NCBI RefSeq assembly: GCF_000003815.2 | Contig: NC_049986.1 | Coordinates: forward strand, 442,858-506,857 | Direction: 5' to 3' | Length of the DNA: 64,000 nt | Origin: Branchiostoma floridae | Lineage: Eukaryota > Chordata > Leptocardii > Amphioxiformes > Branchiostomatidae | Shown: piece after piece, positions 20,302 through 47,703 of the stretch | How the letters are laid out: each line of letters opens with the position of its first letter | Numbering within the stretch: the stretch's first letter is position 1 | Made by a program: the position numbers and the translations under genes | Notes under the pieces: generated by a model | The model's database searches: none | What the model was told of the DNA's origin: nothing | What the model saw: only the letters and a program-made list of their open reading frames with translations

Positions 20302-20930
20302 TTATATACAATGCAGTTCAGTTCAGTTCAGGTCGTCCTCATACGAGGTGCCATTAACAATGCGGTAGTGGGAAATAAACATATTTGACATTATTACGAG
20401 ACATGTTGGACACTGGTCGTTGGATGCTCTCTTTGCCCCCGATAGATCTCCATGGAGATTAGGTTCGAATAGTGTCCATGAGATTCGTCGGATACAGGTC
20501 CAAGGTTCAGGTATAAGGTAGAAGTATTTTAATACAAATTTACAAGTTTGATGGTTTAGATCCGCCATATATAAGATAGAATCTAGTGCACACCCATTAG
20601 AAGTTTCGTTACAATACGACCATACGTTAAAAAGTTACACGAATATACGCGTGTTTTCTACTAACAAGAATCGTCACACATGCCGTAATTGACACGAGTT
20701 ATTGCCGTATTTCAACCAGGTCACGGTTGTTACCTCAGATAAGTCGAAAGGTCAACAGCAACTGACATCTAAAAGAGACCTAGAGTATGGGAAAGATTAA
20801 ACATCGCCATCACATACCCATAGACGACAGAAACTGCAAAACCGCGCATTGTTCCTATCAGTGTGTATTACACAAGCACGATTGTCTGAAATAACAGGAA
20901 GCCCTCATTTGCACATGTGTCAGTAACGAG
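20302..20930. other. Intergenic, short CAGTT repeats, no gene
   Basis: A short CAGTT repeat lies at about 20313-20330. No coding signal. From about 20880 homology to the locus at 47.6 kb begins. Confidence 0.5.
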
Positions 20931-20934
20931 TCCT

Positions 20935-20962
20935 GATTGGTCAGACCGTTTTGGATTTGCAT
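20935..20962 (+). promoter_or_regulatory. Promoter elements of ZNF-B: CCAAT box plus octamer
   Basis: GATTGG (inverted CCAAT, 20935-20940) and ATTTGCAT (octamer, 20955-20962) lie 14 bases apart. The same pair, order and spacing class occurs upstream of the inverted zinc-finger locus at 47514-47542. No TATA box was seen. NF-Y and POU factors bind such sites in animals; use here is inference. Confidence 0.6.
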
Positions 20963-20974
20963 AACAGTCAAACT

Positions 20975-21105
20975 TGTCTGTCTGGTATGTCTGGAGCTTT
21001 CGGAGTAGACCCGTACACACTTCTGTGTCCAAATCCAAGCAAGAGAGCTGTATGTATCTCTTTGTCTTATTAGGAAAGGGACTCATTACCGCCAGTATTC
21101 ACAAG
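20975..21105 (+). other. Non-coding first exon of ZNF-B (predicted)
   Basis: The segment after the CCAAT/octamer pair ends at ATTCACAAG|GTACTG. The homologous segment at 47374 ends ATTCACAAG|GTAAGA, so the donor is conserved between diverged copies. The start of the exon is only an estimate. It would splice to 23688, 19 bases before the ATG. Confidence 0.5.
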
Positions 21106-21836
21106 GTACTGTTGTCTTTATTTCTATCCTCTAGTCTGTCGACTGCCCTTGTTTAGTAATAGTGTACCAACCGTTTCGTTCAGTATATAATTCACTCGCT
21201 CACACAAAGAAATAGCCTCTGCTTGACTCCACATGTCGCTAGAAAATTGTAAACATTGGCGAAATTGACAGGTAACACATTATGTCATATGTCTCTAACT
21301 GTAGGTTTTGTCCGGCTTATTCACCTGGTATGTTGTCTATTTGACAAATTTCTAGTATTTTCTGGTGACATGTGGAGCTTAGTAGAAGCAAGGAGTTTTA
21401 TAAAAAGCTTTTTAAAAAGCCTTCAAAAAAGCTTCTTGGTAGAAGCTAACAAATGGAAACAGTGTGTATTTGCCTCAGTACGATGTTTTGTGTCCGTCGG
21501 TGACCTTTCAAAATCACTGACCGATAGAAAAAGGCTAAATATCCGTCATCTCCAAGCAGATTTATATACGTATACCGGACGCAGGGCTGTATCTAAAGAG
21601 CCAAACTGTGTCTAACTCACTCCGGAGATGTTGAACTACCTGTAACATCCATGACCTTTGACCGCTGTTAGGTTAGACCATACGAGAGGTGGGGCTTGCA
21701 TACACTAACTTGTTAGTCAAGCCCTGATTGGTTGAGGCTGGTGGGAGCAGTCCTATCATTGACTAAGTAGATATTCTATTGTTATGTTAGTTTAGCTTAG
21801 GAGGGGCAATTGCCTGCTCGGTCAGTTTGAGACCTT

Positions 21837-22394
21837 GGAGTCAGGTATGTGAACGTGTTATATAGTCCCTCTGTAGCATGTAAGGTTGTGTAGTTTGTAG
21901 TGTAATACTTTGATTATGGAGTCAGGTATGTGAACGTGTTATATAGTCCCTCTGTAGCATGTAAGGTTGTGTAGTTTGTAGTTTAATACTTTGGTTATGG
22001 AGTCAGGTATGTGAACGTGTTAGATAGTCCCTCTGTTGCATGTAATGTTGTGTACTTTGTATTGTAACACTTTGATTATGGAGTCAGGTATGTGAACGTG
22101 TTAGATAGTCCCTCTGTGGCATGTAAGGTTGTGTAGTTTGTAGTGTAATACTTTAATTATGGAGTCAGGTATGTGAACGTGTTAGATAGTCCCTCTGTAG
22201 CATGTAAGGTTGTGTAGTTTGTAGTGTAATACTTTAATTATGGAGTCAGGTATGTGAACGTGTTAGATAGTCCCTCTGTGGCATGTAAGGTTGTGTAGTT
22301 TGTAGTGTAATACTTTGATTATGGATTCAGGTATGTGAACGTGTTAGATAGTCCCTCTGTAGCATGTAAGGTTGTGTAGTTTGTAGTGTAATAC
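21837..22394 (+). repeat. 81-bp satellite, about 7 copies, in the ZNF-B intron
   Basis: Units start with GGAGTCAGGTATGTGAACG at 21837, 21918, 21999, 22080, 22161 and 22242, with a variant at 22323: an exact 81-bp period with few substitutions. Two copies of the same unit lie in inverted orientation at 46522-46683. Each unit contains CAGGTATGTG, which looks like a splice-donor motif. Confidence 0.95.
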
Positions 22395-23687
22395 GATTAT
22401 CCTGTCGAAGTTCCACAATCATATGAGCAAGTTCCGTAACATCTATTATCATAATACCGGCACGTTTACGACGATTTCTCTAGCCATACTGATTTGACAA
22501 ATTGTCAACGCATCATTTTCTCCAGTTACATGTTGCTATTATAGCTTACACTTGCCACTTCTTCTGTGTAACTTTTCTGCCACTCTTGTCCTGCTAAAAG
22601 CGTAATATTGTAATTGTAACACGCCGCGGAATTACACGGCGAACAGGCGAGTGGTTGGGAGGGGGTAAAAAATACCGCCAGGAAGAAACAATGCACAATT
22701 AACTGTCGCTTGTTCCTTTATACATTCTCTGATGTTCCTGTCATGTCGGCTTACGTTCAATTCTGCCCATTCAGCCGTAGATCCGGGCGATAATGCAACG
22801 GTTCTTCACACTATTACACGAGTGGTAGGTCACCAACAGAAATTCAAGATTGCTGTTGAATTATGTTCGTCTTGTGTCGTGAGCATGTGTAATTATGATC
22901 TACAAATCTGGCAATGAATGTGACAGTGTGTTCGTCCCACGACGAACTGCCTGTCCCGAAAAAGATACTGAAAACTTTTGTTTTGGCCTTGTTGTCTTCG
23001 AATGCATTGTTATCGATGCTTTGTGAATGATATATTGGACACATAGATGTCTGAAGTGTGCAGATGTCTGAAGTGAGCATACCTCAGAAATAACTATTGT
23101 TGCATGTGTAGATCTCTTTAAATTCCATTATTTTTGATCAGCCGGTATAACTCTTACTGCCGGTATTATGCCAATGTATGTTAGATAATACAGCGAACAA
23201 AACGCAATGATACTGGGGAACGGAAGGTAAACAATTTTGACAGAATTCCAAGTGGCGTGTCAGAAAACGAGTCGTATTTCAAGAAAGGATGACTTTGATA
23301 CAAGTAGCAGGTTTGGGGACCAAAAACAGAACACAAAACTGACCCCAAAAAATCCATGCCTTGTGCATATGGTTATTGGCATACATTTTTCGTTTAAATC
23401 TTTCAGCAAACAGCCCGACCGGGAATCGGGTAGGAAATTACCGTTGGCGGCATAACCCATATAAATATATAACCATGCAGATGTTTGGGTTGAGGATTGT
23501 ATTATTTCAATATTTTCTGACTGCAGGGTCTCGGCTCTCCTTGAAAGATAAAAGCCAACACTGCTGCAAGTTTACGAAGATAACTAATTAATTTCAAGGC
23601 TATTTTAATCATGTAGAGAATATCATTACATCAAACAATGCCTTTTGGACAGAAGCTGCAATAATTTTCATATTCCTATTCCTGCAG
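22395..23687 (+). other. Remainder of the ZNF-B intron
   Basis: No open frame with a domain. The intron ends in TTCCTGCAG (AG at 23686-23687). Confidence 0.5.
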
Positions 23688-23706
23688 TGTCAGAGACCTA
23701 CTCAAC

Positions 23707-24642
23707 ATGGCGACCCCGGCTGTATCTCATCTGAAACAAGAGGAGCCACTTCCGAGTACACACAAGTGTGACGAGCGCGGTAAGGAGTTTAGTCAACTTA
23801 TTTACTTCAAGAGACACGTGCGTACTCACACGGATGAAAAACCTTTTAGTTGCGGGAATTGCGGGAAACAGTTTAGTATGCCGAGTCATCTGAAGATACA
23901 CATGCGGACTCATACCGGCGAGAAGCCCTATAGGTGCGATGAATGCAGCAAACAGTTCAGTCAGCTGTGTAGTCTGAAGAGGCACATGCGGACTCATACC
24001 GGTGAGAAGCCTTTTAGGTGCGATGAATGTTGCAAACAGTTTAGCTTGCTGGGTTCCCTGGAGAAGCACATGCGGACTCACACCGGTGAGAAACCTTACA
24101 GATGTGCGGAGTGCGGCAGACAGTTCAGTCAGCTTGGTGACATGAAGAGACATATAAAGACTCACACCGGTGAGAAGTCCTATAAGTGCGAAGAATGTAG
24201 CAAACGGTTTACTGAGCTGAGTCAACTGAAAAGGCATATGCGGACTCACACTGGTGAGAAACCTTACAAATGTGAGGAGTGCGATAGGCAGTTCAGTCAC
24301 CTGGGTAATCTGAAGAGTCATATGCAGATTCACACAAGTGAGAAGCCCTATAGGTGCGATGAATGCAACAAACAGTTCCGTGTCGTCGGTTATCTGAAGA
24401 GTCATATGCGGACTCACACTGGTGAGAAACCATACAAATGTGAGGAGTGCAGCAAACAGTTTAGTCAGCTGTGTAATCTGAAGTTACATTTGCGAACTCA
24501 CACAGGTGAGAAGCCATACAAAAGTGAGAAGTGCAGCAAGCAGTTCAGTGTGCTGAGTAATCTAAAGACACATTTGCGAACTCACACCGGCGAAAAGCCA
24601 TACAGATGTGAGAAGTGCAGCATGGTGTGCTGGGTTCTATGA
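23707..24642 (+). CDS. C2H2 zinc-finger protein, truncated array (ZNF-B)
   Basis: A 311-aa frame with leader MATPAVSHLKQEEPLPST, then ten 28-residue fingers and a broken eleventh. ATG context AACATGGCG lies 19 bases after the acceptor, exactly as in ZNF-C. Fingers 2-9 keep all four zinc ligands. Finger 1 has lost its second cysteine (CDERGKEF) and finger 10 its first (YKSEKC). In finger 11 a deletion of about ten bases after CSK shifts the frame, and the protein stops at ...CSMVCWVL. Remnants of further fingers continue in other frames to about 24921. It may be a shortened functional protein or an early pseudogene. The function, if any, is nuclear DNA binding. Confidence 0.8.
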   Translation: MATPAVSHLKQEEPLPSTHKCDERGKEFSQLIYFKRHVRTHTDEKPFSCGNCGKQFSMPSHLKIHMRTHTGEKPYRCDECSKQFSQLCSLKRHMRTHTGEKPFRCDECCKQFSLLGSLEKHMRTHTGEKPYRCAECGRQFSQLGDMKRHIKTHTGEKSYKCEECSKRFTELSQLKRHMRTHTGEKPYKCEECDRQFSHLGNLKSHMQIHTSEKPYRCDECNKQFRVVGYLKSHMRTHTGEKPYKCEECSKQFSQLCNLKLHLRTHTGEKPYKSEKCSKQFSVLSNLKTHLRTHTGEKPYRCEKCSMVCWVL

Positions 24643-24921
24643 AGAGGCACATGTGGACTCACACCAGTGAGAAGCCCTATAGTTGCAAAGAATACAGTAA
24701 ACAGTTCGTGTGCTCGACTCTCTGAAGGATCACATGCGAACACATACTGGGGAAAACCTTACAGGTGTGAGAAGTGTAGCAGACAGTTCAGGTGTTTGGG
24801 TCATCTGAAGAGCCATATGCGGACTCACACAGGTGAGACCATACAGTACTCAGGAGCTTGCGTCAGTCAAACTGTCTCCGGAGCCACATGCGAACCCACA
24901 GCAATGAAAGTTCATAGCTAA
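24643..24921 (+). pseudogene. Decayed terminal fingers of ZNF-B
   Basis: After the frameshift, finger sequence is still readable in shifted frames: an HM.THTSEKPYSCKEY remnant (cysteine lost), a second small deletion near 24705, then a clean [23 protein letters not shown] finger (read in pieces) and a final SHMRTHS-type end. At least three ancestral fingers are thus cut off from the open frame. Confidence 0.8.
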
Positions 24922-25169
24922 CGTTTCCGATGTGAAAGTTACAGGCAAGTTCTGCATCAGGGGTAATAGGAAGAGACAAGCAGCGAAGAGGAAGCCACAA
25001 ACCAACGTTCGCGCATGTGTATGTTTTAGCCACTGATGCAAGTTCGATGCTTCGTTGTATAATTTAAAGACTGGACTGACATTTACTATACTATTGATAT
25101 ACTGCTGACATTTGGAGACGTTTACGTATATTCATAATCTGTTGGCATCACAGATTCCCTTAACCAATG

Positions 25170-26245: not shown

Positions 26246-26249
26246 AATA

Positions 26250-26745
26250 CTAGAAAGTTAAATTTGCTGTTTAGGGTTTGTGTTCAGGAATATGGTAGTT
26301 TTTAACATGTGGAAAATTTCTACCAAATCAACCATTGAAAAACCATAAAAAAATTTGTGTATTCAAATTTGATTACATATTTTTGATTGCTAGAATAGTA
26401 GATAGCAATGTTATTGTAGTTAGTTGGTTAAAATAATGTATGCGTCTCTCTGGATTTTAGATATTTGAGTAGCTGTGCATGTACATGGTATGGGCTGGAA
26501 CTGTTCCGGTTCCTTTTGGATGTAACGTGCGCTTGTCTGTCATAGACTGTTACAATTGACCATCTTGTAAGATATTGACGTTGAAACCGTTAAAAAAGTT
26601 CGTTTTTTTGTACTGCAATGTTAGATTCCATTGTACTCCATTCTCTCCCTCTATGTTTTATATATATATCTTACAAGTAGACATAAAAAGGCTGTTGAGA
26701 CCGTTAATCAGTATGTAAACACGACATCTTCTGTCTGATCGGCCT
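26250..26745 (+). repeat. ZNF-family 3' region, copy 1
   Basis: Homologous over its length to 26990-27450 (direct) and to 39840-40260 (inverted). Shared landmarks are AAATCAACCATT, GTCATAGACT, and GGCTGTTGAGACCGTTA followed by CAGTATGTAAACAC. Confidence 0.75.
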
Positions 26746-26754
26746 TCTAACAAC

Positions 26755-26960
26755 TGGCCATGAAACAGTTTAGTCATCATAGTAAACTGAAGAGGCGTAT
26801 AAGGAACCACACTGCCTTACAGATGTGAGGAATGGTGGTTTTATGCCCTGGGTAATCTAAATAGGCATATGCAGACTCACGCCATTGAGAAAACTTACAA
26901 GTGTGATGAGTGCAGACAGTGTAGCGGGCAGGTTATCTAAAGAGCCATTACGGCATTCCG
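26755..26960 (+). pseudogene. Zinc-finger gene fragment (3' fingers)
   Basis: Recognisable but broken C2H2 coding sequence: KQFSHHSKLKRRIRNH, YRCEEW..., GNLNRHMQTHAIEKTYKCDEC, in shifting frames. It sits between two copies of the family's 3' region, so it is the tail of a duplicated zinc-finger unit that lost its 5' part. Confidence 0.75.
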
Positions 26961-26989
26961 ATGTCTGGGCTGTTTACAGATTTTTATCT

Positions 26990-27620
26990 AATTGATTCCA
27001 TATCTTCTTAACCGACGCGGAGACTAGAGCTTCAGTGTACTCTTTGTGTTCAAATGTAGGGAAAGTGGTGGTTTTGCCGATGGAAAGATCAGGCCAAATC
27101 AACCATTAAAAACATTGTCAATCTTGTGTATTTTTATGTTGTCTTGAATGCTAGAATGCTAGATAATTGTAGTTGGTTGGGTAGAATAATGTAGGAAGTT
27201 CTAGATTTTACTTAGATATTTGACTGTGAATAACATAGTTAAATGGTATGGACTAGAAATTCATTTTTTAAAGTACAAAACGTGTACGCTTGCCTGTCAT
27301 AGACTTACAATAATCTTCTTTGTCGTCCAAGTTTGTTGGTACTGTAATGTAGGATTGCACTGACCCCCTCTAACGTTATATATATGTAGTTAACACGTGT
27401 ACATCTCTAGAGGCTGTTGAGACCGTTAGTCAGTATGTAAACACAACATGTTTTGTCGACCTACTATCAACTGGAATTCCTCAAGAGATATTTTTGGTTT
27501 GTAAGTATGCCGCACCTTCAAATTGAAATAATCTTTGTTGGTGTTAGAATTTAGTTGCAATCGAAAATGTGACATAATATTGATCAACGGAATATCTGAC
27601 ATATCTTCAATAAAATGCAA
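26990..27620 (+). repeat. ZNF-family 3' region, copy 2, with AATAAA at 27609-27614
   Basis: Homologous to copy 1 and, over 27400-27620, to the reverse complement of 39655-39890. It ends in TCTTCAATAAAATGCAAC, and the inverted locus ends in TCTTCAATAAAAGGCAAC, so the polyadenylation signal is conserved. This is probably the shared 3' UTR of the zinc-finger unit. Confidence 0.75.
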
Positions 27621-27794
27621 CTTGCCTCACGTATGGTTGGGTTGGAATGTTTCTCCCTGGTTGACAGAAAAAATATTTACGTTTTCCTTGAAGGGGCTGC
27701 GGTGTGTGGAAACAAGGCAACTCTTGCCTGCACACCTCCTGCGGGACCTTCCCGTCCTAATCTCATCAAATGGGCTGACCAATCACTAGACGAA

Positions 27795-28657: not shown

Positions 28658-28740
28658 GGGATATCTTAAATATGCGACTCTGTATTTTTTGCATCCGTAC
28701 ATTGCGGCGGTGTATTGTGGGTAATCCTATCGTTGTCCCT

Positions 28741-29040: not shown

Positions 29041-30810
29041 GTATGTTTTATACAATGATTGTTTCCAAGCAATACCCGCTTTGAATTTGTCTTTGTGACT
29101 ACATTCCTTGTTGGCTAGTAGTTAGTAGCGCTTTTGGTATACTTGGGCTGAACAGAAACTTATCAGAAAACGACATAACGGAGCCTTACAAAACACAAGT
29201 CACAAGCATGATACTTGCTGAGTAACTGTTGACTTATTTTGGAAAAATTTGAATCATCATCAAAACAGTACTTGTATACACATATGTTTGTCTCAAGCCT
29301 GGTATTTATTCGCATAGGAACATTCTGTTCCAACGGTGTTTACGTGTTTGTTTATATATGCGACGTCTCGTACACAATGCAAAGTCCGGCCGGGGAAGCA
29401 GATCACACCTTGTCACTAATTATGCAACGCTAGACTATTTCTGCCGCGCCCTCCCGGAGGACTTTTTTGTTATGATAATGCGGAATGTAACGGTGATAAT
29501 GGCGATACCACAATCAGATGCATTTGTTCCTGTTGTATAACAAGCCAATCACCATTTCTTTTCATATACATCCTAATTACTTTGACAGACGCATCCATCA
29601 AACATGGATGCTTTAGCTATCTCAAAATTTCATGGGATTATTCTTTCTCTTTTTCAGAAGGCGGGTCGACATTCTCTGGCCGTGTCAACAGCTGGGAGAA
29701 CACTGGACTACAGGAAGATAAGTAAACACCGAATATTTTTAAAGAAATATAGTATTTTAGTGTAAAACGCAGTTTTTAGACATTTCGCATAAACTATGAT
29801 AATAAGCACTTATTACCCATGCTAATAAAAGTGTAAATGTTTCTAATTGATTTAAAAAACAATACATGGACAGAATGTGCAGAAGGAACCTGCAAGAAAG
29901 ATATTTGCGGGGAAAAAAGACAAGAGTTATTGTATGTATGTACTTAGGTGACAAAGTATGGTGCATAATTGAGTAATAAATTCGTTACTTTTCACAAATA
30001 ATGTATATTTTCTTGTCAAATAACATGATTATGCTATCAGTATTATTATAGCATCAAAATTATTGATAAGAAATTGCTGACACAAAAACATTGTTAAAGT
30101 AAGTGGAGTATGGTAGATGTTTAGAACAAAATGTGGTTTCTTCCTATTTTCTGCATAAATTATGATAATGAGCAAAAATTACTGCCACCAAAACTTGTCA
30201 AAATATTTTTCATAGATTGGGGAAACATTAAATACATAGAAATGACAAAATAAGCCAGCAGAAATATGTCTATCAGCAAAACAAAATGGGGTCAAAAATG
30301 ACCCCATACGGTCAGATTCGTCGTAAAAATGTATCGGTCGGATGAGGGTTAAGTCGAACAGGGCGGGCGGCTCCTTATTTTCCCACTATGTCGACCATGA
30401 AAGTATGCTTTTAATAAAGCCCACCGAACGTTGCACCTCCTATCTGAATGTACGCTAAAACTAGAGGATGGTTAGAGCGACTTAAATTGCGGAAAGAAAA
30501 GGAGAAAGCAGCTTACGGAAGGCCAGCACCGATCCCTGATATGCTGCTACTATGTAGATAATCAGGCGATTTGCTTGGCTCCAGCAACGTGGGTCATCGT
30601 CATCAGGCCAGCTTGTGCGGAGATTCCATGCTTACCCGTAAAATACTTAGGGGGTGGGTGGGTGGGGGGGCTAAAAATTTGACTGCACTTCTTTCCCGTG
30701 CTCCCCCCATCTACTAATATCCTATTCAGCAGAAAAGGTGAAGAATTGCTCCGAAACTTGATATCATGTGTTGCGCTCTGTTGTTCAGATATAACACAGA
30801 AAAGACACCT
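29041..30810. other. AT-rich stretch with a diverged tandem repeat; no gene
   Basis: Blocks with (G/T)CATAAA(C/T)TATGATAAT(A/G)AGCA occur at about 29770-29950 and 30130-30250 and look like diverged copies of about 150 bp. No frame carries a domain. Confidence 0.45.
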
Positions 30811-30813
30811 ACA

Positions 30814-31085
30814 CTTGAACAGAACTTTATTGGCCGACAATTGTACATGATATGGCAACTATTATTACACAAAGTACCAAATGACTGACACTCGGTTTTA
30901 TTCCGACTGCTGTACCACATGAGAAAGAGCCATACACTCTTTGTGTCTGGCGGTAGGCTGTTCCAGACATTGGGCCCACGGTAGGCTATTGATCTTCTGA
31001 AGGTCTCTCGCTTAGGCTTTGGGACAACCAGTTGACTACTTGCTTTGGTTGTTCGTGTACTCTGGTCCCTGCAGTACACAAACAT
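30814..31085 (-). mobile_element. 3' end of a truncated non-LTR retrotransposon
   Basis: On the minus strand the frame from 31085 reads ...SSQLVVPKPKRETFRRS, then IAYRGPNVWNSLPPD, the typical C-terminal end of LINE-encoded reverse transcriptases. It is followed by a 3' UTR ending GGCCAATAAAGTTCTGTTC (to 30814). The 5' part is missing, as in ordinary truncated insertions. Confidence 0.75.
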
Positions 31086-31253
31086 CTAGCGCATGTAGGG
31101 TGGTAGTTGCATATAACTTCGGAGCTTTGGATAATCCACACAGATCGGAGATATCCCTCTGGTGAAAAGCGGCTACACTAGAAACCTACATTGCCTCTGA
31201 CCGTGGACTGTAGCTAGACTAGTCTACTCTTGCTAGGCTGTGTCCCTCCCGCC

Positions 31254-31361: not shown

Positions 31362-32620
31362 ATAATATATTCCCACTCACGTTACCTCAGTGGAGAGTTA
31401 AGGACTGGGGTGAGAAGACCTCGGCACCCGCTTCTCCCGAGTGCCATTATTCCCTAATTTAAGTTCCTACATTTTCCTTCACTGTTAATCCTCTCCCAAT
31501 CCTTATTCTTCTCCATTTCCTTTTCCCAATCCTTATTATCTTCATTCCCCCAATCCCCCACCTCTGTGCCTTTCCGTACAAAACCCTCTACGTATGCATT
31601 AAGCCACCTTGACAACACAGCAGCATCCCCTATGGTCTGCTGCGCATGCTTGTTGTTACCAACAGGGTGGGTGTAAGACTATCACAGTCACAGTCATCAG
31701 TCTTTAGGTGTTCCTCAGGAATGCAGATTGATCCCTGGTTCTCAGCTAAGTTCCTTGGGCGCCTAAGGCCCGGCTCGAGTGGGACCTGTCCAATCCGAAC
31801 TCAGTGGAATGGTCGACGACCAGTCCGATTAGATAGAGAACCCTTAGAGATTACCTGAGACCAACCTCTCCCAGGTTCAACTCATCTTGCGTCGTGTTGG
31901 AAATCAACATTGATTTCTCTGCGTATACAAGAACAATATTCCAGCTGCAGNNNNNNNNNNNNNNNNNNNNNNNNNNNNNNNNNNNNNNNNNNNNNNNNNN
32001 NNNNNNNNNNNNNNNNNNNNNNNNNNNNNNNNNNNNNNNNNNNNNNNNNNCACAGTTCTATGTATTTCAGTCTGGACAGGCCCCACTCGCTTCCCGGACC
32101 ACCAGGCCGAAGCCAGTATGGGTGGCAACAGCTTAAGGGAGCTGAACACGGTCCACGAGTGAGAACTAGGCCAGCTAAAGGTAGCCAATAAACAGGAACA
32201 CAGAAAATCCAATGGTAGGAAGGAATGTGACACGAGAAACTCTTCATGATCTTTGTCTTTATTCAAAACTTGCATAACAAGAAACGCAAACACCGGTTCA
32301 GTCAACGGTAAAATCACCATCCAACATTACCGTGCAGACGCTGCGGACCTTATAGAAAATTGCATGTCGTCCAAGGTCACAATCTAATTGTGACAAACGA
32401 AGTTCCATTGTTCCCATTGTGTCCTCCATTCCTTTGACCTTTACTTCTGACCTGTCCAACAAGGTAGGTCTTCACTGTAGTACCGTACGGTCTTGTTACC
32501 GACCATGGATTTGTTCACCAACCATGCAACAAACCAAACAAAATCTGAGGTTGTCCATATAATGTCCAACAACCTGTCGTCATATCAAATGAAAACACCG
32601 ACTCAAATCAAACAAAGTTG
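31362..32620. other. No gene; contains a gap
   Basis: CT-rich sequence, then AT-balanced DNA interrupted by 100 N. No domain-bearing frame. Frames crossing the N run are meaningless. Confidence 0.5.
31951..32050. other. Assembly gap, 100 N
   Basis: Exactly 100 unknown bases, the usual placeholder for a gap of unknown length. Confidence 0.99.
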
Positions 32621-32622
32621 CG

Positions 32623-37978: not shown

Positions 37979-39604
37979 ATCTCCATGAAAAATGGAGATA
38001 TAGTTTTGAGTGTGTCTGTGTGTGTTTGTGTGTGTTTGTGTTTCCGGATATTTGTGGTCAGCATAACACTAGAACCTCTAGATAGATTACGATGATATTT
38101 GGTATGTAAGTAGGTGTTAGGAAGACAAAGGTAAAGGTCAATTTTGAGCCCCCTGGTATGTGACCTCGGTACTGCAGCAAAAATTCGTTTTTTGTATCTT
38201 TTGAACTGGATGAGCTGTGGTCTTGATTTTTTGGTGGCAGATAGCTAATGACGTAAGGAATAGGTGGTGTATGTTTGGGTCCCCTAGCAGGTTGCTCTGG
38301 AACTGCAGGGGCGTTTTTTCAAAATATTCTTGGTAGGATAACTGAACAAGGGAACGACAAATTTAGATGATACTTGGTATGCAGGTAGTTTTGACAGAGA
38401 TGTACATCCTAAAGTGCAAATTATGCAAGCTGGCACTTAATTTGCATAATTAATGAGGGAAATTTATATTTGTAGTGTTTTATAGGTATAGGTTTTGTAG
38501 GTAAGGTTCCGGGTCGGAGTTCAAATCTTACCGGAGTTGCGGAAGGGTGGTGTAATAGGCCGGAAGTGCGCTATTTTCTCCCTAACTTTTGCTCCCTATT
38601 GCTAGGTGATCGTTATAGCTGAGCATAGATTTGTCGTATTTCCTGAAAAGCCCGTGGGTTGTATCATTTTTGTGCGAGGAGTAGTTGGTCGGCCAGTGAA
38701 GCCATTTTTGTATTAGTCCGCTGCAACGGTGAAGCGGTTTTTTCGCCTGATGACCCAAATAGCAGCGTTTTTCATGCGATTTCGAAGAAATGACGTCATC
38801 GGAGATTGCCAAAAAGTTATCACATGGAATTTTTTTTATTTTCATTTTACAAAAACATGAAGAATTTAGCTTTTCTGCCACATAGGCCGTTATCCTGGGA
38901 AAATTCGTTTTTTCCAAGCAGCTTCGATCAAAAAAGTGTTAAAAAATGATAGTTTTCGGGTCCAAAAATAAAATTTTACTACATATTCTACCCCAAATAA
39001 AGAGGCAACAGACGATACCAGTTGGTTTGTCGGAAAGAGACAGAAAACGGCTTTCCACCATATTGATAGAGTTTCGCGTCCTACGGTTCCTACCCGAACT
39101 GTAGCCCTTCGGCCTGAGGCTTGTCGCCAAGCTCCGAAATCATAAAGCCCCCTTTACAAATCAAGAATTTAGCTCGGCCGAGTTGTCAGCGAGCTGTAAA
39201 TTACGAGGAGGCATGACCCTGATGCCCACGAACAAATGGCAGAGTTTCTTCGTCGGCATCAGAGTCATACCTCCTCGTAATTTAGAGCTCGCTGACGACT
39301 CGACCGAGCTAAATTCTTGATTTGTAAAGGGGGCTTTAAAGAAACTCCGGTCCGAGACCGTATAGGGCTCAAATACCTGTAATATGTAGTTTGTGGCTGG
39401 TGGAACATTAGCAGATAACAATTATGCAAATTCGACCCTAATTTGCATAACTAATATTAAAGTGCTATAATTCTTCTCAATGGTATATTATTGAACAATC
39501 AACATTGGGACCGGCATAAGTTATATAAAGGTGTACATAACCAAGCATAGATTATGTAAATGTGGAAGTAATTTGCATAATCGGACTATTTCATGGAGAT
39601 ATAA
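37979..39604. mobile_element. 1.6-kb inverted-repeat element bounded by TATCTCCATGAAA
   Basis: The left end TATCTCCATGAAA at 37979 is matched by TTTCATGGAGATA near 39590-39602. The interior has landmarks GATGATATTTGGTATG and TTTGCATAATTAATGAG, which recur elsewhere in the window (12900-13110, 44870-45840). No transposase was found. A perfect nested MITE occupies 39143-39338. Confidence 0.6.
39143..39338. mobile_element. 196-bp fold-back MITE
   Basis: Arms of about 85 bp starting TAAAGCCCCCTTTACAAATC and ending with its complement are nearly perfect, with a central loop of about 30 bases. It sits inside the larger inverted-repeat element. Confidence 0.85.
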
Positions 39605-39654
39605 GGTCTACGATTGATTGATTGAAACATAAAAATCCAACTATACTTTTAGGC

Positions 39655-40290
39655 ATGTTGCCTTTTATTGAAGATATGTCAGATATTCCGTCGATCATAC
39701 AAACAATATCATGTCACATTTTCTATTACAGCTTAATTATGACATTATCGATAGAGGTAGGTTAAACTTGAAAGTACGGCATATATACAAACTAAAAAAC
39801 CTCTAGAGAAATTCCAGTTGTCAGAGGGTTGACCAGACAGAAGGTGTCATGTTTACATACTGATTAACGGTCTCAACAGCCTCTTTAATGTTCACTTGTA
39901 AACTACATATTTGTAGATAAAGAATGAGGTTTAATGTAATCTAACATTATAATACCAAGAACTTGCGGTTTCAATGACAATATCTTACAAGGAAGTTCTA
40001 TTGTAACAGTCTATGACAGTTAGCCGAACATGTCACTCTAAAAGGAACCAATGAACACTTCCAGCTCATAAGACGTACATATATTGCTAAGTTATCCACA
40101 CTCAAATGTCTAAATCAAGTAAGACACCTACACTTTTCTAACTACGATGACCTAAAGATCTAGCATGCAATACAATGAAGAACTTGAAATGAAAGAATAG
40201 TACACATTTTTTTCAATGGTTCTATGACAAAGCCATCACAATCCTTAACGCAAACAGCAAATTGAATTTCAGTCTCCAGGTTGGTCAAGG
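39655..40290 (-). repeat. ZNF-family 3' region, copy 3 (inverted), AATAAA at 39664-39669
   Basis: Reverse complement of the 3' regions at 26250-26745 and 26990-27620, with the same order of landmarks and the same terminal TCTTCAATAAAA. Probably the 3' UTR end of ZNF-C or of the adjoining relic. Confidence 0.75.
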
Positions 40291-40419
40291 AAATTTGAAT
40301 GCAAACAGATCACCAGCGGAAAAGCTAGGGTGAACTAGCGTTGCACGGACAAACTGGCTTCGTGGCTTCTCTTTTTCTCTTTCGATTTTCCCTAATGTCG
40401 AACGTGCCTGTAGCCTTCA

Positions 40420-40530
40420 TGATCACACCGGTAGCTTTAAACTTCAATCGCTGTGGGTTCGCATGTGGCTCCGGAAATGACCTGAGGTACGGAAGCTCAT
40501 ACTGCGTCCTTTACACGATGGTAAAATTTG
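40420..40530 (-). pseudogene. Terminal zinc-finger remnant
   Basis: On the minus strand the frame reads SGHFRSHMRTHSD, matching the end of the decayed ZNF-B array (LRSHMRTHS). The preceding finger half is lost. Confidence 0.65.
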
Positions 40531-40630
40531 GCCCCAAAATTTCCAGACTTCTATGTTGGGATTTAGAACACGAAACATGTTCCATCGAGCAGAACGCTGG
40601 CGTGATCGAACAGATCGGGCGTTCCATTTG

Positions 40631-41507
40631 GGGTCATCCGAGGTCACCCGCAGGTTGTTACAGTAAACACGCGGAAAACGCCCTCATTTTCCCGGGTGCC
40701 GTGCGTCAGAAGAAAAACAAACATTTTCACAAATATAAACCGATATTTGGCAAGCTTAGTTTTGCTGCCGCTTAGTTTGGAACATGTGACATGTAACAAA
40801 GCTGCTGGCGTCATTATTGGTGACCTTGAATGTTACAACACTTGTTTACGGCGGTATCAATTACTCTATGTCACTATCAGTGCGACTCGACATAGGACCA
40901 AACATGGTATTTAAATCGCTTGCAAAACGCGTGCAAATCAACTCTTTCAGGACTTATATTGTCGACAACTAATATCTCCAACTTTGTGTCTTAGGGATTT
41001 TTGGAACATGGAGGCAATTTTGAATTAATAGTCTTTGAGTGTGAAAATTTGAAAAAATGACGATTTTTCGACCTTATCTTGGCTGTAAAAATAGTTTTAA
41101 GTAGAAGTTGAAAAATCCCTAAGACAGGAAGTTTGATCTTAATATCATTACCTATATGATGTAAAAGATTTGGATTTTCAGTCAAATTTAGGACCGATCT
41201 AAATATGGTATTTGCTTTTTTGGTCCACCAAACACCCTTTCTAAATCAACCAACTATGCACATTTCAGAAAACATTGAGACAAAACTGTGCAGCACACGT
41301 ACACGGTAAGATTTGACGTGTACACACTACCAGTTTTCATTTAAGATCGACAAGGCACGTGCGAGAGGTTGTTTTTCAAACTTTCACGATATTGTAGAAG
41401 ATGTTTCAGTCACCGTCAGCCCTCCGCGGGGACCGCGCGGGAGCCCCGGTAACCCGATACTCTGGGTTCGAATGGAAACTTTTGGACCAAATTTGACCAT
41501 CGTGTTT
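40631..41507 (+). repeat. Inverted arm 1 around ZNF-C
   Basis: About 880 bp that match the reverse complement of 43378-44235 with scattered differences. Landmarks are GGTCACCCGCAGGTTGTTACAG (outer end), CCCGGGTGCCGTGCGTC, GGACCAAACATGGTATTTAAAT, and GGGAGCCCCGGTAACC near the inner end. It shows no coding capacity. Confidence 0.85.
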
Positions 41508-41689
41508 ACACCGGTAGGAATTCTCGCCGGTGCGAATTATATTCTCCAAGCAGAGGCTGGGGCACGGAGAGAGTAGTAGTCGTGACTTTTACCTACTGTT
41601 TGTTGGCTTTCCGGAAAAAATGCTGACCACTACTATCTCCGAGACCAAACTTCTGCTCGGAGAATTGTGTGAATCTGCATTTGGCCCTT

Positions 41690-41876
41690 CAGATGATCCG
41701 ACCAACTGAAGTGCCTGCTGCACTCCTCACATCTGTAAGTTTTTTTCTCCAGTGCGCCAAATGCCTCTTTACAGCAGTAAGCTGAAGAAACTGTTTGCAT
41801 TCATCGCACCTATACAGAAAGTATGAGTCCGTATATATTTCTTCAGTGAAACCAAATCACTTTACTGTTTGCCGCA
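41690..41876 (-). pseudogene. Decayed fingers downstream of ZNF-C
   Basis: Past the ZNF-C stop the minus strand still shows finger pieces: a CGKQ stub directly after the stop, then YRCDECKQFLQL, KTYRCEECSRHFSWSDHLKG and similar, in shifting frames. A deletion at the finger boundary created the stop. Confidence 0.8.
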
Positions 41877-42878
41877 CTAAGGTTTCTCACAAGAGTGAGC
41901 CCTCATATGCCTCTTTAAATTACTCAGGTCACTGAACTGCTTGCTGCATTCTTCGCACTTATAGAGCTTCTCACCAGTATGAATCCGCATGTGTCTCTTT
42001 AGACTACCCAGCTCACTAAACTGTTTGCTGCATTCTTCGCACTTATAGGGCTTCTCACTTGTGTGAGTTCGCATGTGACTCTTTAGATGACCCAGCTCAC
42101 TAAACTGTCTGCCGCACTCCTCACATTTGTAAGGTTTCTCACCGGTGTGAGTCCGCACATGCCTCTTCAGATCACCAAGCTTTAAGAACTGTCTGCCGCA
42201 CTCCTCACATCTATGAGGTTTCTCACCAGTATGAGTCTTCATATGCTGCTTCAGATGACCCAGCTGACTGAACTGTTTGTTGCATTCTTCGCACCTATAG
42301 GGCTTCTCACCGGTATGAGTCCGCATGTGCCTCTTTAGACTAAACAGCTTACTAAAGTGTTTTCTGCATTCTTCGCACCTAAAGGGCTTCTCACCGGTAT
42401 GAGTCCGCATGTGACTCTTCAGATCACCCAGCTGACTGAACTGTCTGCCGCACTCCTCACATCTGTAAGGTTTCTCACCTGTGTGAGTCTTTATATGCTG
42501 CTTCAGACTACCTAGCTCACTGAACCGTTTGCTGCATTCATCACACCTATAAGGCTTCTCACCGGTATGAGTCCGCATATGGTTCTTTAAATAACTCAGC
42601 ACACGGAACTGTTTGCTACACTCCTCACAACTAAAGGGTTTTTCACCGGTGTGTGTCCGCGTGTGTCTCTTTAGATGACTCAACACACTGAACTGTTTGC
42701 TACACTCCTCACACCTAAACGGTTTCTCACCGGTGTGAGTACGCATGTGTACCTTCAGACCACTCAGTCGTAGAAACTCCTTGTCGCACTCGCCACACTT
42801 GTGTGTTCGCGGAAGATCCTCTCCAAGTCCATTACTTCCCTTTTCTTTTTCCAGATGAGATACAGCCGGGGTCGCCAT
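41877..42878 (-). CDS. C2H2 zinc-finger protein, 11 fingers (ZNF-C)
   Basis: A 333-aa protein with leader MATPAVSHLEKEKGSNGLGEDLPRT (split here by its first finger at HKC), then eleven 28-residue C2H2 fingers, all with complete ligands, ending ...HMRAHSCEKP. It is likely a nuclear DNA-binding factor. The ATG at 42878 has context AACATGGCG and lies 19 bases after an acceptor (CCTACAG), the same distance as in ZNF-B. The open frame continues upstream through the acceptor, so a longer start is possible only without splicing. The last linker is altered (SCEKP). The coding exon lies between two long inverted arms. Exon 1 and promoter are predicted near 47.4-47.5 kb, giving an intron of about 4.5 kb. 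Confidence 0.92.
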   Translation of the reverse strand: MATPAVSHLEKEKGSNGLGEDLPRTHKCGECDKEFLRLSGLKVHMRTHTGEKPFRCEECSKQFSVLSHLKRHTRTHTGEKPFSCEECSKQFRVLSYLKNHMRTHTGEKPYRCDECSKRFSELGSLKQHIKTHTGEKPYRCEECGRQFSQLGDLKSHMRTHTGEKPFRCEECRKHFSKLFSLKRHMRTHTGEKPYRCEECNKQFSQLGHLKQHMKTHTGEKPHRCEECGRQFLKLGDLKRHVRTHTGEKPYKCEECGRQFSELGHLKSHMRTHTSEKPYKCEECSKQFSELGSLKRHMRIHTGEKLYKCEECSKQFSDLSNLKRHMRAHSCEKP

Positions 42879-43377
42879 GTTGAGTAGGTCTCTGACACTG
42901 TAGGAATGGAAATAAAGCCTAACATCTAGGAAGGAAACGGTTGATTTCTTGACACAGTCCACTCTAACGACAAGCACAAGTAATGTTAATTTATAAAAAT
43001 CAGTGATGCTTTCTTTCAAACGGCATGGTCGGTTACAATAATCAAGGATCTTCTAGTTGAAACCCCCTAGCTATCAGCGCTGGCTTTTATTTTTGTTGTA
43101 AGGAACGGTAATACGGGATTTTTATCATGGGCTATGGGTCTCTAATGCCATGAGAGGCAGTTTCCACGCGCGTACGCGGACCTATGAATGAGGCTACTTG
43201 TAAAATGAACCGTTTTTTCTTTAGAGGGTGGCGAAAGAAGTGACTATTTGTGTGTTTTTCAAAGAGATAATGATTAGGTAAACAGTTTTTTATTTCAATT
43301 TTTTCAGCAGAAAGGAATTTAATACTTTTTACTGCAGAAAAATCTAGCATAGAATATTTGAATTCGGAAGCATTAGG

Positions 43378-44235
43378 CATCACGATGGTCAAATTTGGCC
43401 CCAAAGTTTCCATTCGAACGTATGGTATCAGGTTACCGGGGCTCCCGCGCGTGTCTCCGGGGAACCTGACAGTAACTAGAACATCTTCCAACAGATCGTG
43501 GTAGTTAGAAAAGCAACCCCTCGCATGTGCCTCGTCGATACTGGCAGTATGTACACGTCAAATCTTACCGTGTACGTGTGCTGCACAGTTTTGTCTCAAT
43601 GTTTTCTGAAATGTGCCTAGTTGGTTGACTTAGAAAGGGTGTTTGGTGGACCAAAAAACAAATACCATATTTAGATTGGTCCTAAATTTGACTGAAAATC
43701 CAAATCTTTTGTATCATATATGTTATGATATTAAGATCAAACTTTCTGTCTTAGGGATTTTCCAACTTCTACTTAAAACTATTTTTACAACCAAGATAAG
43801 GTCGACAAAATCATCATTTTTTTTCAAATTTTCACACTTAAAGACTAGTAATTGAAAATTGCATCCATGTTCCAAAAATTCCTAAGACACAAAGCTGGAT
43901 ATGGACAATATAAATCCTGAAAGAGTTGATTTGCACGCGTTTTGTAAGAGATTTAAATACCATGTTTGGTCCTATGTCGAGTCGCACTGATATGGACATG
44001 GAGTAATTGATACCGCCGTAAACAAGTGTTGTAATATTCAAGGTTACCAATAATGACGTCAGCAGCTTTGTTACCTGTCACATGTTCCATACTAAGCGGC
44101 AGCAAAAATAAGCTTGCCAGATAACGGTTTATATTTGTGAAAATGTTTGTTTTGCTTCTGACGCACGGCACCCGGGAAAATGAGGGCGTTTTCTGCGTGT
44201 TTTCTGTAACAACCTGCGGGTGACCGCGAGTGACC
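43378..44235 (-). repeat. Inverted arm 2 around ZNF-C
   Basis: Reverse complement of 40631-41507. Together the arms define a 3.6-kb palindrome-like structure with a 1.87-kb centre holding the ZNF-C coding exon. The open frames inside it are arm-shared shadows. Confidence 0.85.
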
Positions 44236-46515
44236 ATCGTGCATATTGTTGAAATCTCGAATGTGAAAGATCGGAGCCCAGCCGTCAGAAAATATTACAA
44301 CCTCCACCCCAACATCTACTTAAAGATTTAATTAGATAAAGATTGTATTAGGAGGACGTGCAGGCAATGCGTAACCGTACGGTAAATTCGAAAAGATCAA
44401 CAACGATTAGAGTCCATTCCTAATCACCATGTGGGTTTCTTTCCAATTATATGTGTAGAATATATGGTACTTCCTGGTTGTGTACAACCTTTGAAATATT
44501 CGCGATGTGGAACAGAATAATTCTAACAGATTGTAAATAATGATAACGGCATTTTGTGCAACAGTGGATTAGTAAGAAAGCAATTTACACACCCTTGTAG
44601 AGTATCGTTGGTTGTAATAGAGCAATGGCTCACCACAAAGGACCCACCAGTGCCCAGCAGAGAAATCTAAAAATATACCAAGGCTGACAGAGTGTTTATT
44701 GGAGCAATAAACTAATGCTATTATTTGGCGAGGTTTACCATTTTTTGTAAACATTTCTAAAAGTGAAAGAATCCTGCAGATGCTTGAAAAATATTGTAAA
44801 CTAGAGTTTGGCGACCTCAGACCTCCATGAAATATTTGGAGCTTTTGTAAATTTTATGCAAACGACTTGCACATTTACGTGATTTATGCATGGTGATGTT
44901 TATCATTAACTAACATACACTTGTCAAGTATGAAATTCCCATCATTAATCATTGAGCGGTTTTACTATTTCCGCATATATTATGCAAATCAGTTCCTCAT
45001 TAGCATATTTAGTATCTGCTTAGGTTCCTGCCATCATAATATACATGTGTTACATTAATTAAAGTCCAGATATTAAAAACAATGAAATAATGCGATTTTC
45101 ACATTAATTTAACATGTATATCATTATGAACATCTTTGCTTAAGCTAACTTCATGCCTAAAATTATGTCAATCTGTCATTCCTTTTTGCAGTTATCCTCT
45201 TCGGAATGTCTAGACAAAAATACCCCATACAGGTCTAAAGTCATATGTTAGGGGGCTGAAACTTATCCCACTTAAACATGACGCTGAAAGCTATCTACCA
45301 CTAAAATGTCAAGACCATATCATGTCTGGGACAAGAGATACATTGAAAAAACTGCAATGATAAATTATTCTTATTAGTTATGCAAATGTAATCCTATTTT
45401 GCATAATTCGTATTTCATCTTGTACAACATTGTTCAAAGTACCTACATACCAAAGGTTTTTAAAATTCGTTGTTCCCCTTTTGAGTTATCCACTTAAGAA
45501 ATTTTTGATAAAAATGCCCCTGCTATCCCCAAACTAGTCGCTAGGGGCCCCAAAATTATGTAACTTACTCCTGAGAACAAGAACTTCAAAAAAATTGGAG
45601 GCAGTTGCTACTGATTAATGGTGAATCTAAAAAGCAAACTCGCTTTGACTCGCGGTAAAATTCATATAAACTCTTTCTTATAGGTATTTGAGGCGTTTTA
45701 TTCTTTTGTAGTGGTCCTTGTTTGTTTACTTTTCGCCTAACGGAGAAATACGTATAAAGAGGTATTAAAAACAATCATTTGCATAACATAATCTTCTTGT
45801 TATGCAAATGAGGACCATACATCTGCCTGGAGATAATGTTTGCCCGGCAATTAGTTTGTTTGATAATTATATAATACTATAAAAATAAAGGGTAATTCAG
45901 TCAAAGGAAGAGCCTCCTGCGTTTTAGCTTCCCCACAGATATCAAACTACATGTGCGGCATGTCTAACTCTATTAGACAAAGGCCTCGAGAATGAAAACA
46001 GTCCTTGTCGTGACCATTGTTTCGATTTGCATAACAACGTCGGAACGAGTTTTGTTGTCTTTATCTCGGGGCCTTTCTCTTTAACATGGTGAAATCTGAT
46101 CTCAGACAATGAAATTTCGATGCTTGGTATGACAAGACTTTGTACATGTGACATCCACGGAAGCTAGTCTCCGTGTTGCCAGGCCAGGGCCTACACAGAC
46201 CAGCCACTCGGTTCACGGACGAGAGTGGAAGGGCTAATACGGACCGCAAACAAGTATTTTCCACGCAGAGGATGCGGTCGGGCATAACAATCCTACATGG
46301 CCCCACATTGCTGCAATCGTAAAATTACTAGTATGTAACAGAATAGGGTTTATGCTCAATCCTATTAGCTTTAATATGAGCCGTGTTTATTCAACCTATG
46401 CTATCTATACTCAAGTATGATCCGAAGCACTCCAGCACAGTTTACACCAGGTTTACAATTACAGATCTGTGGATACAATGTGTCTGGATTACCAAATCTT
46501 GTTATAATACAGAGA
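44236..46515. other. ZNF-C intron, repeat-rich and AT-rich
   Basis: The part 44870-45840 has recurrent ATTTGCATAA / TTATGCAAAT motifs, and a block (about 45400-45500) that is the reverse complement of the GATGATNNTTGGTATGYAGG family at 38080 and 38370. No coding exon was seen. Confidence 0.5.
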
Positions 46516-46521
46516 TAGCGG

Positions 46522-46683
46522 ATAATCAAAGTATTACACTACAAACTACACAACCTTACATGCTACAGAGGGACTATCTAACACGTTCACATACCTGACT
46601 CCATAATCAAAGTATTACACTACAAACTACACAACCTTACATGCTACAGAGGGACTATCTAACACGTTCACATACCTGACTCC
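46522..46683 (-). repeat. 81-bp satellite, 2 copies, inverted
   Basis: Exactly 162 bp, two units, the reverse complement of the array at 21837-22394. It lies at the same place in the ZNF-C intron as the seven-copy array does in ZNF-B. Confidence 0.93.
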
Positions 46684-47373
46684 AAGGTCTCGAACTGACT
46701 GAGCAGACAAGTGCATCTTCCAAGCTTAACTAAGTAAACATAACAATAGAATATCTACTTAGCCAATAAGCGGATTGGTTTCATTAGCCTCAACCAATCA
46801 GGGCTCGACTAACCAGTTAATCTCTGCAAGCCCCACCTCCGTATGGTCTAACCTATCAATAGCCCTAATTACATACACCGGTCAAAAGGCATGGACGTTA
46901 TAGGTTAAAAGTCTCCGGGGTGCGTTAGACACAGTTTGGCTCTTTGGTTACTGCCCTGCGCCTGGTATACGTGGAACTGCTTGAAGATGACGGATATTTG
47001 GCCTTTTTCTATCAGTCAGTGATTTTGAAAGGACACAAAACATCGTGCTGAGGCAAATAAACACTGTTTTATTTTGTTATTCTCTATCAGGCTCCACATG
47101 TCAATAGAAAATACTAAAAATTTGTCAGACAGACAAAGCACTAGGTGCCTAAACCTACAGTTAGAGACACAGGACATAAAACTTTATGTGTTATCTGTCT
47201 ATATGGCCAATTTCTACTATTTTCCAGCGATATGCGAAGCCTGGTAGTGGCTATCCCTTTGTGTGCGAGTGCTAATTTGCGGAACGAAACGGGTACGTAC
47301 AATATTGTCCTTAGCCAGAATAAACGAGGGCAGCCGACAGGCTAGAGGATAGAAATAAAGAGAACAGTCTTAC

Positions 47374-47500
47374 CTTGTGAATATTGGCGGTAATGAGTCC
47401 TTCCCCGAAGACTAAGAGATAGTTGTAACTCTCTTGCTTAGACTTGGACGCAGAAGTGTGTGCGTATCTGCTACGAAAGCTCCAGACATTCCAGGCGGAC
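47374..47500 (-). other. Non-coding first exon of ZNF-C (predicted)
   Basis: Homologous to the predicted exon 1 of ZNF-B. The donor ATTCACAAG|GTAAGA (GT complementary to 47372-47373) is canonical. The transcription start is not determined. Confidence 0.5.
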
Positions 47501-47513
47501 GCGTTTTACTGTT

Positions 47514-47542
47514 ATGCAAATTTAAAAATGGTCCGACCAATC
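47514..47542 (-). promoter_or_regulatory. Promoter elements of ZNF-C: CCAAT box plus octamer
   Basis: ATGCAAAT (47514-47521, octamer on the minus strand) and CCAATC (47537-47542), in the same arrangement as at 20935-20962. Confidence 0.6.
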
Positions 47543-47703
47543 AGGACTCGCTTCTGACTTACTCACGTGAGGGCCTCCGTTTTTTTTCCAGACAATAGTC
47601 TTTGTGTGACACACACTGACAAGAAGAATGGGCGGTTTCATGCAGTTTCTGTTGTCTGCAGGTATGTGAAGGCGACATTTTTTACCTTGCCGGGCCTTAG
47701 CCC

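Follow-up and report, generated by a model that had tools for sequence, protein, structure and literature searches.

A minisatellite with the anatomy of a lancelet mirage, probably evolving in concert within a zinc-finger gene cluster

The two convergent zinc-finger loci, A (+) and B (−), in the 64,000-nucleotide stretch of Branchiostoma floridae DNA analyzed here (the window; C8:442858–506857, in a 513-Mb genome) are cousins in a large cluster and not copies of each other. They are best explained, with fair probability for the account as a whole, as remote relatives within one large family of C2H2 zinc-finger genes that is clustered on a single lancelet chromosome. The more remarkable feature is an 81-bp repeat that, judged by its sequence, has the anatomy of a lancelet "mirage" minisatellite and that probably evolves in concert through ectopic recombination between arrays, with the flanks diverging.

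The 81-bp unit spans the presumed exon 1/intron 1 junction, taking in the final 9 nt of exon 1 and 72 nt of intron, so that a presumed splice donor recurs in every unit. There are 18 arrays, 17 at C8:0.19–2.15 Mb and one on C18, each of 2–18 units and with copy number differing between loci. CAG/GTATGT is retained in 124 of 136 units, and AG/GT signals of the mirage type are present (CAGGT within the first 14 bases in 128/136). Fifteen arrays, two of them adjoining N, start at unit position 1; 424k and 1298k start at position 2, and 2015k, split there by an insertion, starts at position 6. For 14 of the 18, a leader exon lies 0.4–3.6 kb downstream on the same strand.

Of the 18 arrays, 17 contain one exact 81-mer in common, which is also the consensus of 17 (A included), the 194-kb array differing from it at 4 places. 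Unit identity was 0.967 within and 0.966 between loci (from 136/138 units, the single-copy C18_947k being left out of the between-locus value), exceeding that of the alignable flanks, whose medians of 85.5% (5′, 57 pairs) and 81.6% (3′, 30 pairs) cover only pairs that aligned. We found 90 distinct unit sequences, and the arrays are therefore not one copied consensus. This pattern suggests that recurrent recombination between arrays, by ectopic gene conversion and unequal exchange, may keep all 18 alike as their flanks diverge normally. The donor is presumably in use, the array would have arisen once, in the cluster ancestor, the mechanism would be conversion, and some exchange tracts would end within the array, re-pairing promoters with different coding exons.

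Two pairs of loci bear on this last step. In both B/E (E being the C8:347-kb locus) and 1625k/C18_947k, the 5′ flanks are 97% identical, the 3′ flanks are 80–81% identical, and the leader classes differ. The joining of near-identical promoters to different coding-exon classes suggests an exchange joint, though the exchange reaching C18 may reflect misplaced sequence. The 3′ flank tree did not reject B and E as sisters (p-AU 0.356), and the leader test against them was weak (0.046); the choice of the pairs B+E, 1625k+C18_947k and 1404k+1777k was made only once the data had been seen, and their AU values are indicative only. A third candidate for incongruence, 1404k/1777k (leader clade 100/98), was left out, its promoter clade being only weakly rejected (p-AU 0.026). 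The recent pair 1298k/2015k was dropped as an exchange boundary: the 2015-kb array is split by a ~4-kb insert, and the real 5′ flank, which lies at 2019 kb, matches 1298k at 208/212 positions. The two are 97–98% identical on both sides of the array, hence a plain duplication. For 2000k/2150k, the 3′ flanks are 99% identical, with only N on the 5′ side at 2150k. A tentative reading, possible rather than probable, is that the mirage serves as a recombination joint in the first intron, through which promoters throughout the cluster acquire different zinc-finger coding exons as partners, whether by conversion, by break-induced copying or by inversion between arrays. Because a donor is present in almost all units, a spliceable gene would result whatever the exchange register.

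Could the shared unit instead be held in place by purifying selection, as a splice enhancer, promoter-proximal element or RNA-binding site, with arrays re-expanding locally from a single conserved copy, so that loci need not exchange sequence? We consider this somewhat improbable. Within arrays, positions 1–30 vary less per site than positions 31–81 (~1.9% vs ~3.8%, averaged by hand), and divergence is about the same in first units as in interior ones (1.6% and 1.4%; in last units, 3.3%), both of which are expected from constraint on the junction. The single unit of C18_947k keeps 76 of 81 positions, plus an insertion, and diverged single-copy loci retain the exon end and donor: at C17:11784k, C10 and C8:3280k (three of 5 such loci), positions 1–30 are kept at 27, 27 and 29 of 30. 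However, these three keep positions 31–81 at only 38, 25 and 28 of 51, against per-position conservation of ~96% within arrays, and some first units have altered donors (1777k without GT; 194k and E changed beside GT). Zero differences per 81 bp in 17 of 18 consensuses, beside alignable flanks diverged by ~15%, would also be extreme for mainly intronic sequence.

An assembly artefact, in which identical arrays led to reads from different loci being joined in false promoter/exon combinations, or in which haplotypes came to be represented as distinct loci, seems to us less probable still. The available part of one report describes Sanger reads, HaploMerger2, HiRise and haplotype merging for what is inferred to be this assembly (PMC7269912), and that of another mentions one mirage whose assembly was aberrant in a previous draft (PMC3087553). 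Of the arrays, four are longer than 1 kb, and N runs occur in 7 of the 21 stretches inspected, though some N may not be gaps. Nevertheless, the arrays of B (163 bp) and E (384 bp) are both shorter than a usual Sanger read; the 90 distinct units and differing copy numbers argue against one collapsed array; and the flanks diverge beyond the level usual between alleles. Such an artefact would, moreover, bear on the promoter/exon pairs far more than on the common unit itself.

As to A and B, an earlier note on this DNA had read them as inverted copies of a whole gene unit, and their parts do follow one order at 20.8–27.65 kb (+) and 47.7–39.6 kb (−) (Table 1). The promoter regions are identical at 799 of 949 aligned columns; A matches B with 648 bits (869 with the first repeat units included), compared with at most 34 bits against 50 dinucleotide-shuffled targets. 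Both carry two GATTGG boxes, a common ATTTGCATAACAG block (A 20955, B 47521) and the presumed exon-1 donor CAG/GTATGTGAACG, followed by the satellite, a coding-exon leader with 19 bases from acceptor to ATG, decayed end fingers and an AATAAA-bearing 3′ region. By aligned column, identity in the three 3′ pieces was 83%, 80% and 77%. Full 60-column windows of the promoter alignment up to the repeat scored 0.77–0.95, with no clear conserved core block, and we therefore do not claim promoter selection. The note's argument that introns and promoter had been copied holds for the promoter but not for whole introns, whose bodies hardly align past the repeat: between A 22403–23690 and B 42915–46521, only one 80-bp stretch (69%) and 30 bases at the exon edge aligned. 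Duplication at the DNA level rather than retroposition is nonetheless supported, because A and B share not only the promoter region and exon 1 but also the donor repeat and the sequence that surrounds the AATAAA and continues beyond it.

By contrast, a single inverted segmental duplication as the direct source of A and B is highly improbable. Duplication and inverted order stand, and the part order and 77–84% identity outside the array are in its favor, but A and B are not each other's closest relatives. An A+B clade was rejected for the 5′ flanks (p-AU 5.9e-40) and for the leader exons (p-AU 0.017), the two leaders belonging to different classes. For the 5′ flank of B, identity is 97% with C8:347 kb against 87% with A, and 46522–53175 matches C8 348086–343676 at 93–96%; the leader closest to A's is on C18 (130/145). 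Among 61 matched pieces genome-wide, the best single piece for A's promoter region is C8:424388–425382 (792 bits), and B is matched in two pieces (423 and 342 bits), which leaves A at roughly the same distance from several loci. Alleles placed twice were ruled out, the flanks being too diverged and the introns hardly alignable.

A 100-N run missed by the earlier note lies between the units. A misoriented contig was suspected there, since C, A and A2 are all + and B and D all −, but was dropped: gapless C8:426873–428997 matches 30620–31950 at 95.7% and 32051–32790 at 97.7%, in the same orientation and 58 bases apart, and the inverted arrangement of A and B thus stands as assembled. At least 31 related leader exons lie in C8:0.15–3.38 Mb (17 +, 14 −). 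With both orientations this frequent, no special single inversion is needed for the A/B layout, and cluster members would have been made by DNA-level segmental duplication in both orientations. The note's picture, that of a zinc-finger cluster growing in an invertebrate chordate, is of the right kind; our literature search on lancelet zinc-finger clusters found nothing on this C8 cluster. Tandem C2H2 fingers with TGEKP-type linkers place the units in the C2H2 family, and Pfam PF00096/PF13465 matched the A, B and C exons. C also has 19 bases between acceptor and ATG (judged by eye), and the A or B promoter region had no match in 3000–6900. Also absent from the earlier note were the relic fingers and second 3′ region of A2 and the relic D.

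Table 1 Features of the window, by position
Feature	Position	Strand	Remarks
C: third zinc-finger exon, A/B family	6813..7904	+	One open frame, ATG 6825, 12 fingers by pattern
A promoter/exon-1 region	20790..21835	+	GATTGG boxes 20935, 21726; 84% to B by aligned column
A mirage-type minisatellite	21836..22395	+	7 units of ~81 bp, each with CAG/GTATGTG
A intron 1 body, presumed	22396..23687	+	Unalignable to B intron except one 80-bp stretch, 69%
A coding exon	23688..24642	+	ATG 23707, stop 24640–24642; C2H2 fingers; short leader class MATPAVSHLKQEEPLPS
A end fingers, decayed and frame-shifted	24643..24838	+	
A post-array piece	24842..24997	+	Matches B 40513–40355
A 3′ region, first copy	26277..26757	+	
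A2	26763..27653	+	Relic fingers 26763–26947; second 3′-region copy 26973–27653 (AATAAA 27609)
100-N run	31951..32050	.	Bridged by gapless C8:426873–428997 (58 bp there)
B post-array and 3′ region	39624..40513	−	AATAAA 39669
Inserted element	40513..41505	.	~32-bp terminal inverted repeats (87.5%); second copy, inverted, 43381–44235 (89%)
B end fingers, decayed	41665..41876	−	
B coding exon	41877..42897	−	ATG 42878; 11 C2H2 fingers by simple pattern; long leader class MATPAVSHLEKEKGSNGLGEDLPR
B intron 1, presumed	42899..46522	−	Repeats 43381–44235 (second copy 40632–41504), 44813–45574 (related to 38193–39608)
B mirage-type minisatellite	46523..46684	−	2 units, both the exact master sequence
B promoter/exon-1 region	46685..47691	−	GATTGG 47542, 46799; 97% to C8:347 kb over last 395 aligned bases
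D: relic last finger with 3′ region, from another unit	50313..50603	−	Head-to-tail with B; within block common to C8:347 kb

Lancelet mirages are known at Adh3, the globins BflGb6/BflGb9, troponin C and PGBD5, and the available parts of these reports describe them as minisatellite-like tandem duplications of an exon–intron boundary, with many units carrying AG/GT signals and with variable copy number (PMC3087553, PMC3902484). The 81-bp unit resembles them in its tandem arrangement, its AG/GT signals and its variable copy number, and it may likewise span an exon–intron boundary. In those parts, mirages are described gene by gene (PMC3087553, PMC3902484), whereas here one unit is common to 18 arrays of a dispersed gene family, and it sits at a presumed first-exon (5′UTR) junction.

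The finger arrays of A and B are tandem 84-bp repeats, as in PRDM9-type coding minisatellites. C2H2 finger arrays such as that of PRDM9 are coding minisatellites built of tandem 84-bp finger repeats, whereas the 81-bp repeat is non-coding and identical between loci, not just within one gene. Eichler et al. 1998 reportedly linked the human 19p12 zinc-finger cluster with beta-satellite; the lancelet repeat differs, being a short intragenic minisatellite located at a presumed splice donor. An association of satellite repeats with the expanding 19p12 cluster is also noted in the available part of a further report (PMC2671837).

Long-read genomes of lancelets, together with RNA data, offer a test of whether the 81-bp arrays evolve in concert. 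If this reading is right, a splice-site minisatellite would be evolving in concert over ~2 Mb, at 18 loci and in both orientations, inside a zinc-finger cluster, and lancelet mirages, as far as the available accounts portray them, would be tied to cluster growth and to the mixing of regulatory and coding parts. Should the array also act as a recombination joint, it would be a natural promoter-shuffling device for a fast-evolving family of DNA-binding proteins.

When the window was compared with itself, 20.8-27.65 kb matched 47.7-39.6 kb in inverted orientation, bearing out the earlier note's reading of two facing C2H2 zinc-finger units, here called A (+) and B (-). Their promoter/exon-1 regions are identical at 799 of 949 aligned columns (84%) and three 3' pieces at 83%, 80% and 77% of aligned columns, and the real regions score 648 bits, rising to 869 bits once the first repeat units are added, versus at most 34 bits from 50 dinucleotide-shuffled versions of the right contig. 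The promoter, donor, spacing and 3' features which that note listed as common to both were confirmed. Each unit has two GATTGG boxes, a ATTTGCAT block, the donor CAG/GTATGTGAACG and, close to where the aligned 3' region stops, an AATAAA; in each, 19 bases separate acceptor and ATG, and the leader protein starts MATPAVSHL. The further claim that the introns were copied with the unit was not confirmed for the intron bodies, which align between A and B only over 80 bp (69% identity) and at the exon edge. An element with ~32-bp terminal repeats occurs twice in the intron and 3' part of B, its copies inverted and 89% identical. By eye, no A finger matches any B finger (9 and 11 fingers, respectively, by simple pattern) at all four presumed contact residues.

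Zinc-finger gene and relic units in the window besides A and B
Feature	Position	Strand
A2, relic fingers and second 3' region	26763-27653	+
D, relic last finger and 3' region	50313-50603	-
C, third gene, one open frame	6813-7904	+

Two N runs interrupt the window (2412-2671 and 31951-32050). Since every unit to the left of the 100-N run is on the + strand and every unit to its right on the - strand, a flipped contig was suspected there. The gapless stretch C8:426873-428997 speaks against this: it matches 30620-31950 (95.7%) and 32051-32790 (97.7%) in the same orientation and order, and the two matches are 58 bases apart in it. This bridge therefore supports the inverted arrangement of A and B that had been proposed. 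The short stretch between N runs at C8:425992-428999, 96-98% identical to 30.6-32.8 kb, is possibly an unmerged second haplotype. Near the 100-N run lies a large tandem array (32729-34222; 24.6 copies of 60 bp), and the 260-N run is flanked by two 330-bp copies (2083-3001; 98.8% identical) that probably represent unmerged contig overlap. Directly upstream of A, a long open frame that encodes an endonuclease domain (PF03372) and a reverse transcriptase domain (PF00078) at 16663-19731 (+) is probably a non-LTR retrotransposon, while leucine-rich-repeat open frames between C and A (9940-10524 and 13703-14734, +; PF13855) are perhaps exons of LRR receptor-like genes.

Searches of the genome (513,431,437 bases, 431 contigs; window at C8:442858-506857) placed both units within a larger cluster. 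The B leader exon had at least 37 matches, at least 31 of them at C8:0.15-3.38 Mb (hand-counted; at least 17 + and 14 -), and promoter pieces at 1303545-1304212 (-) and 1305560-1306153 (+) also stand in opposite orientation, with no N between. The A promoter region matched 61 pieces, 49 on C8. Its best single match besides itself was C8:424388-425382 (792 bits), and the two pieces matching B (423 and 342 bits) sum to about the same, so that the A promoter lacks a close relative. Over its last 400 bases, the 5' flank of A is 80-89% identical to the nine loci that align over 200 bases or more; B is one of these, at 87%. The 5' flank of B is 97% identical to that of E, a locus at C8:347 kb, and B 46522-53175, a block containing relic D, matches C8:348086-343676 at 93-96%, with breaks at 47684-49994 in B and of ~100 bases in E. 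Tandem repeats of 100 bp (49430-49891) and 12 bp (47731-47965), absent in A and at E, lie within the 2.3-kb insertion upstream of the B promoter.

Phylogenetic tests rejected A and B as a duplication pair. In the 5' flank tree (15 of 19 flanks; two with N and two without a family flank adjoining the array were left out), B and E grouped at 100/100 and an A+B clade was rejected (p-AU 5.9e-40). The leader-exon tree (15 of 19; the other four loci had no leader found or were cut by N) placed A with C18_947k, a locus at C18:947 kb (89/95), and again rejected A+B (p-AU 0.017; 0.00055 in an earlier set of 11). By eye, two classes of leader can be told apart, a short one (A, E, 1298k, 2015k and C18_947k, array loci being named by C8 position in kb) and a long one (B, 194k, 1318k, 1404k, 1625k, 1777k, 1792k, 1992k, 2000k and 2150k).

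Judged by its sequence, the 81-bp repeat in these units has the anatomy of the lancelet mirage, a minisatellite that tandemly duplicates an exon-intron boundary. The unit starts TGGAGTCAG/GTATGTG, 9 bases ahead of the presumed donor, whose use we infer; CAG/GTATGT is kept in 124 of 136 units, and the presumed exon end ahead of it is kept in diverged loci. Genome search and profile scan found 18 arrays of 2-18 units, 17 at C8:0.19-2.15 Mb and one at C18:18.13 Mb, and the single-copy C18_947k. Five weaker matches comprised four single-copy loci and, at C8:2019 kb, the first part of the 2015-kb array, separated from the rest; still weaker ones (C173, C3, C16:16.8 Mb, C17:13.4 Mb) lie outside the array counts. 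At C8:2014854-2019133, ~4 kb of inserted sequence splits a mirage-type array, and the TCAGGT on either side resembles a target-site duplication made at the presumed donor. A same-strand leader exon lies 0.4-3.6 kb downstream of 14 of the 18 arrays; none was found downstream at 291, 424 and 1760 kb, and the C18:18.13 Mb locus is cut by N.

Units are as similar between loci as within them (identity 0.966, without C18_947k, and 0.967; 136 of 138 units aligned, two short ones left out), beside flanks with median identities of 85.5% (5'; 57 pairs aligned over 200 bases or more) and 81.6% (3'; 30 pairs over 150 or more), medians that cover aligned pairs only, many 3' pairs having failed to align. 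Concerted evolution usually leaves this combination. Among 90 distinct unit sequences, one identical 81-mer, the master, occurs in 17 of 18 arrays and equals the consensus in 17 of 18, the 194-kb array differing at 4 places; the A array has no exact master unit, yet its consensus is the master. Last units are more divergent (3.3%) than interior ones (1.4%), but first units are not (1.6%; first and last together versus interior, p = 0.0011, permutation, 17 arrays with at least three units). Constraint alone might explain a common unit, and C18_947k, which keeps 76 of 81 positions, plus an insertion, in its single copy, speaks for it. Against constraint alone, three of five single-copy loci (C17:11784k, C10 and C8:3280k) keep 27, 27 and 29 of positions 1-30 but only 38, 25 and 28 of the 51 positions 31-81; C17:11644k, with Ns inside, keeps 21/30 and 30/51. 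Some constraint on the presumed exon/intron junction is likely too, since within arrays the variation at positions 1-30 is about half of that at 31-81 (~1.9% versus ~3.8% per site, hand-averaged).

Three recent pairs could be assessed, and in two of them identity drops at the array, which suggests a possible exchange joint there. In both B/E and 1625k/C18_947k, identity is 97% in the 5' flank but 80-81% in the 3' flank (84-88% for B/E by another aligner), and the leaders are of different classes; a common leader clade gave p-AU 0.046 and 0.0017, respectively, in pairs chosen after the data were inspected. As B+E was not rejected in a 3' flank tree of 10 loci (p-AU 0.356), the drop is clear for this pair and the topology is not. 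The third pair, 1298k/2015k, is 97-98% identical on either side and is an ordinary duplication. Misassembly through identical arrays could also have made such promoter/exon pairs: it is a real rival at 1625 kb, where the array is long (1.47 kb), and less so at B and E, where arrays are short (163 and 384 bp).

In the open-licence literature, which we covered in part, we found no report of a mirage common to a gene family or of this zinc-finger cluster. By eye, the master unit of the arrays (in the window at 21836-22395 and 46523-46684) contains two start-stop pairs, ATGTGA and ATGTAA. If a downstream donor were used, the 5'UTR would thereby gain minimal upstream reading frames.
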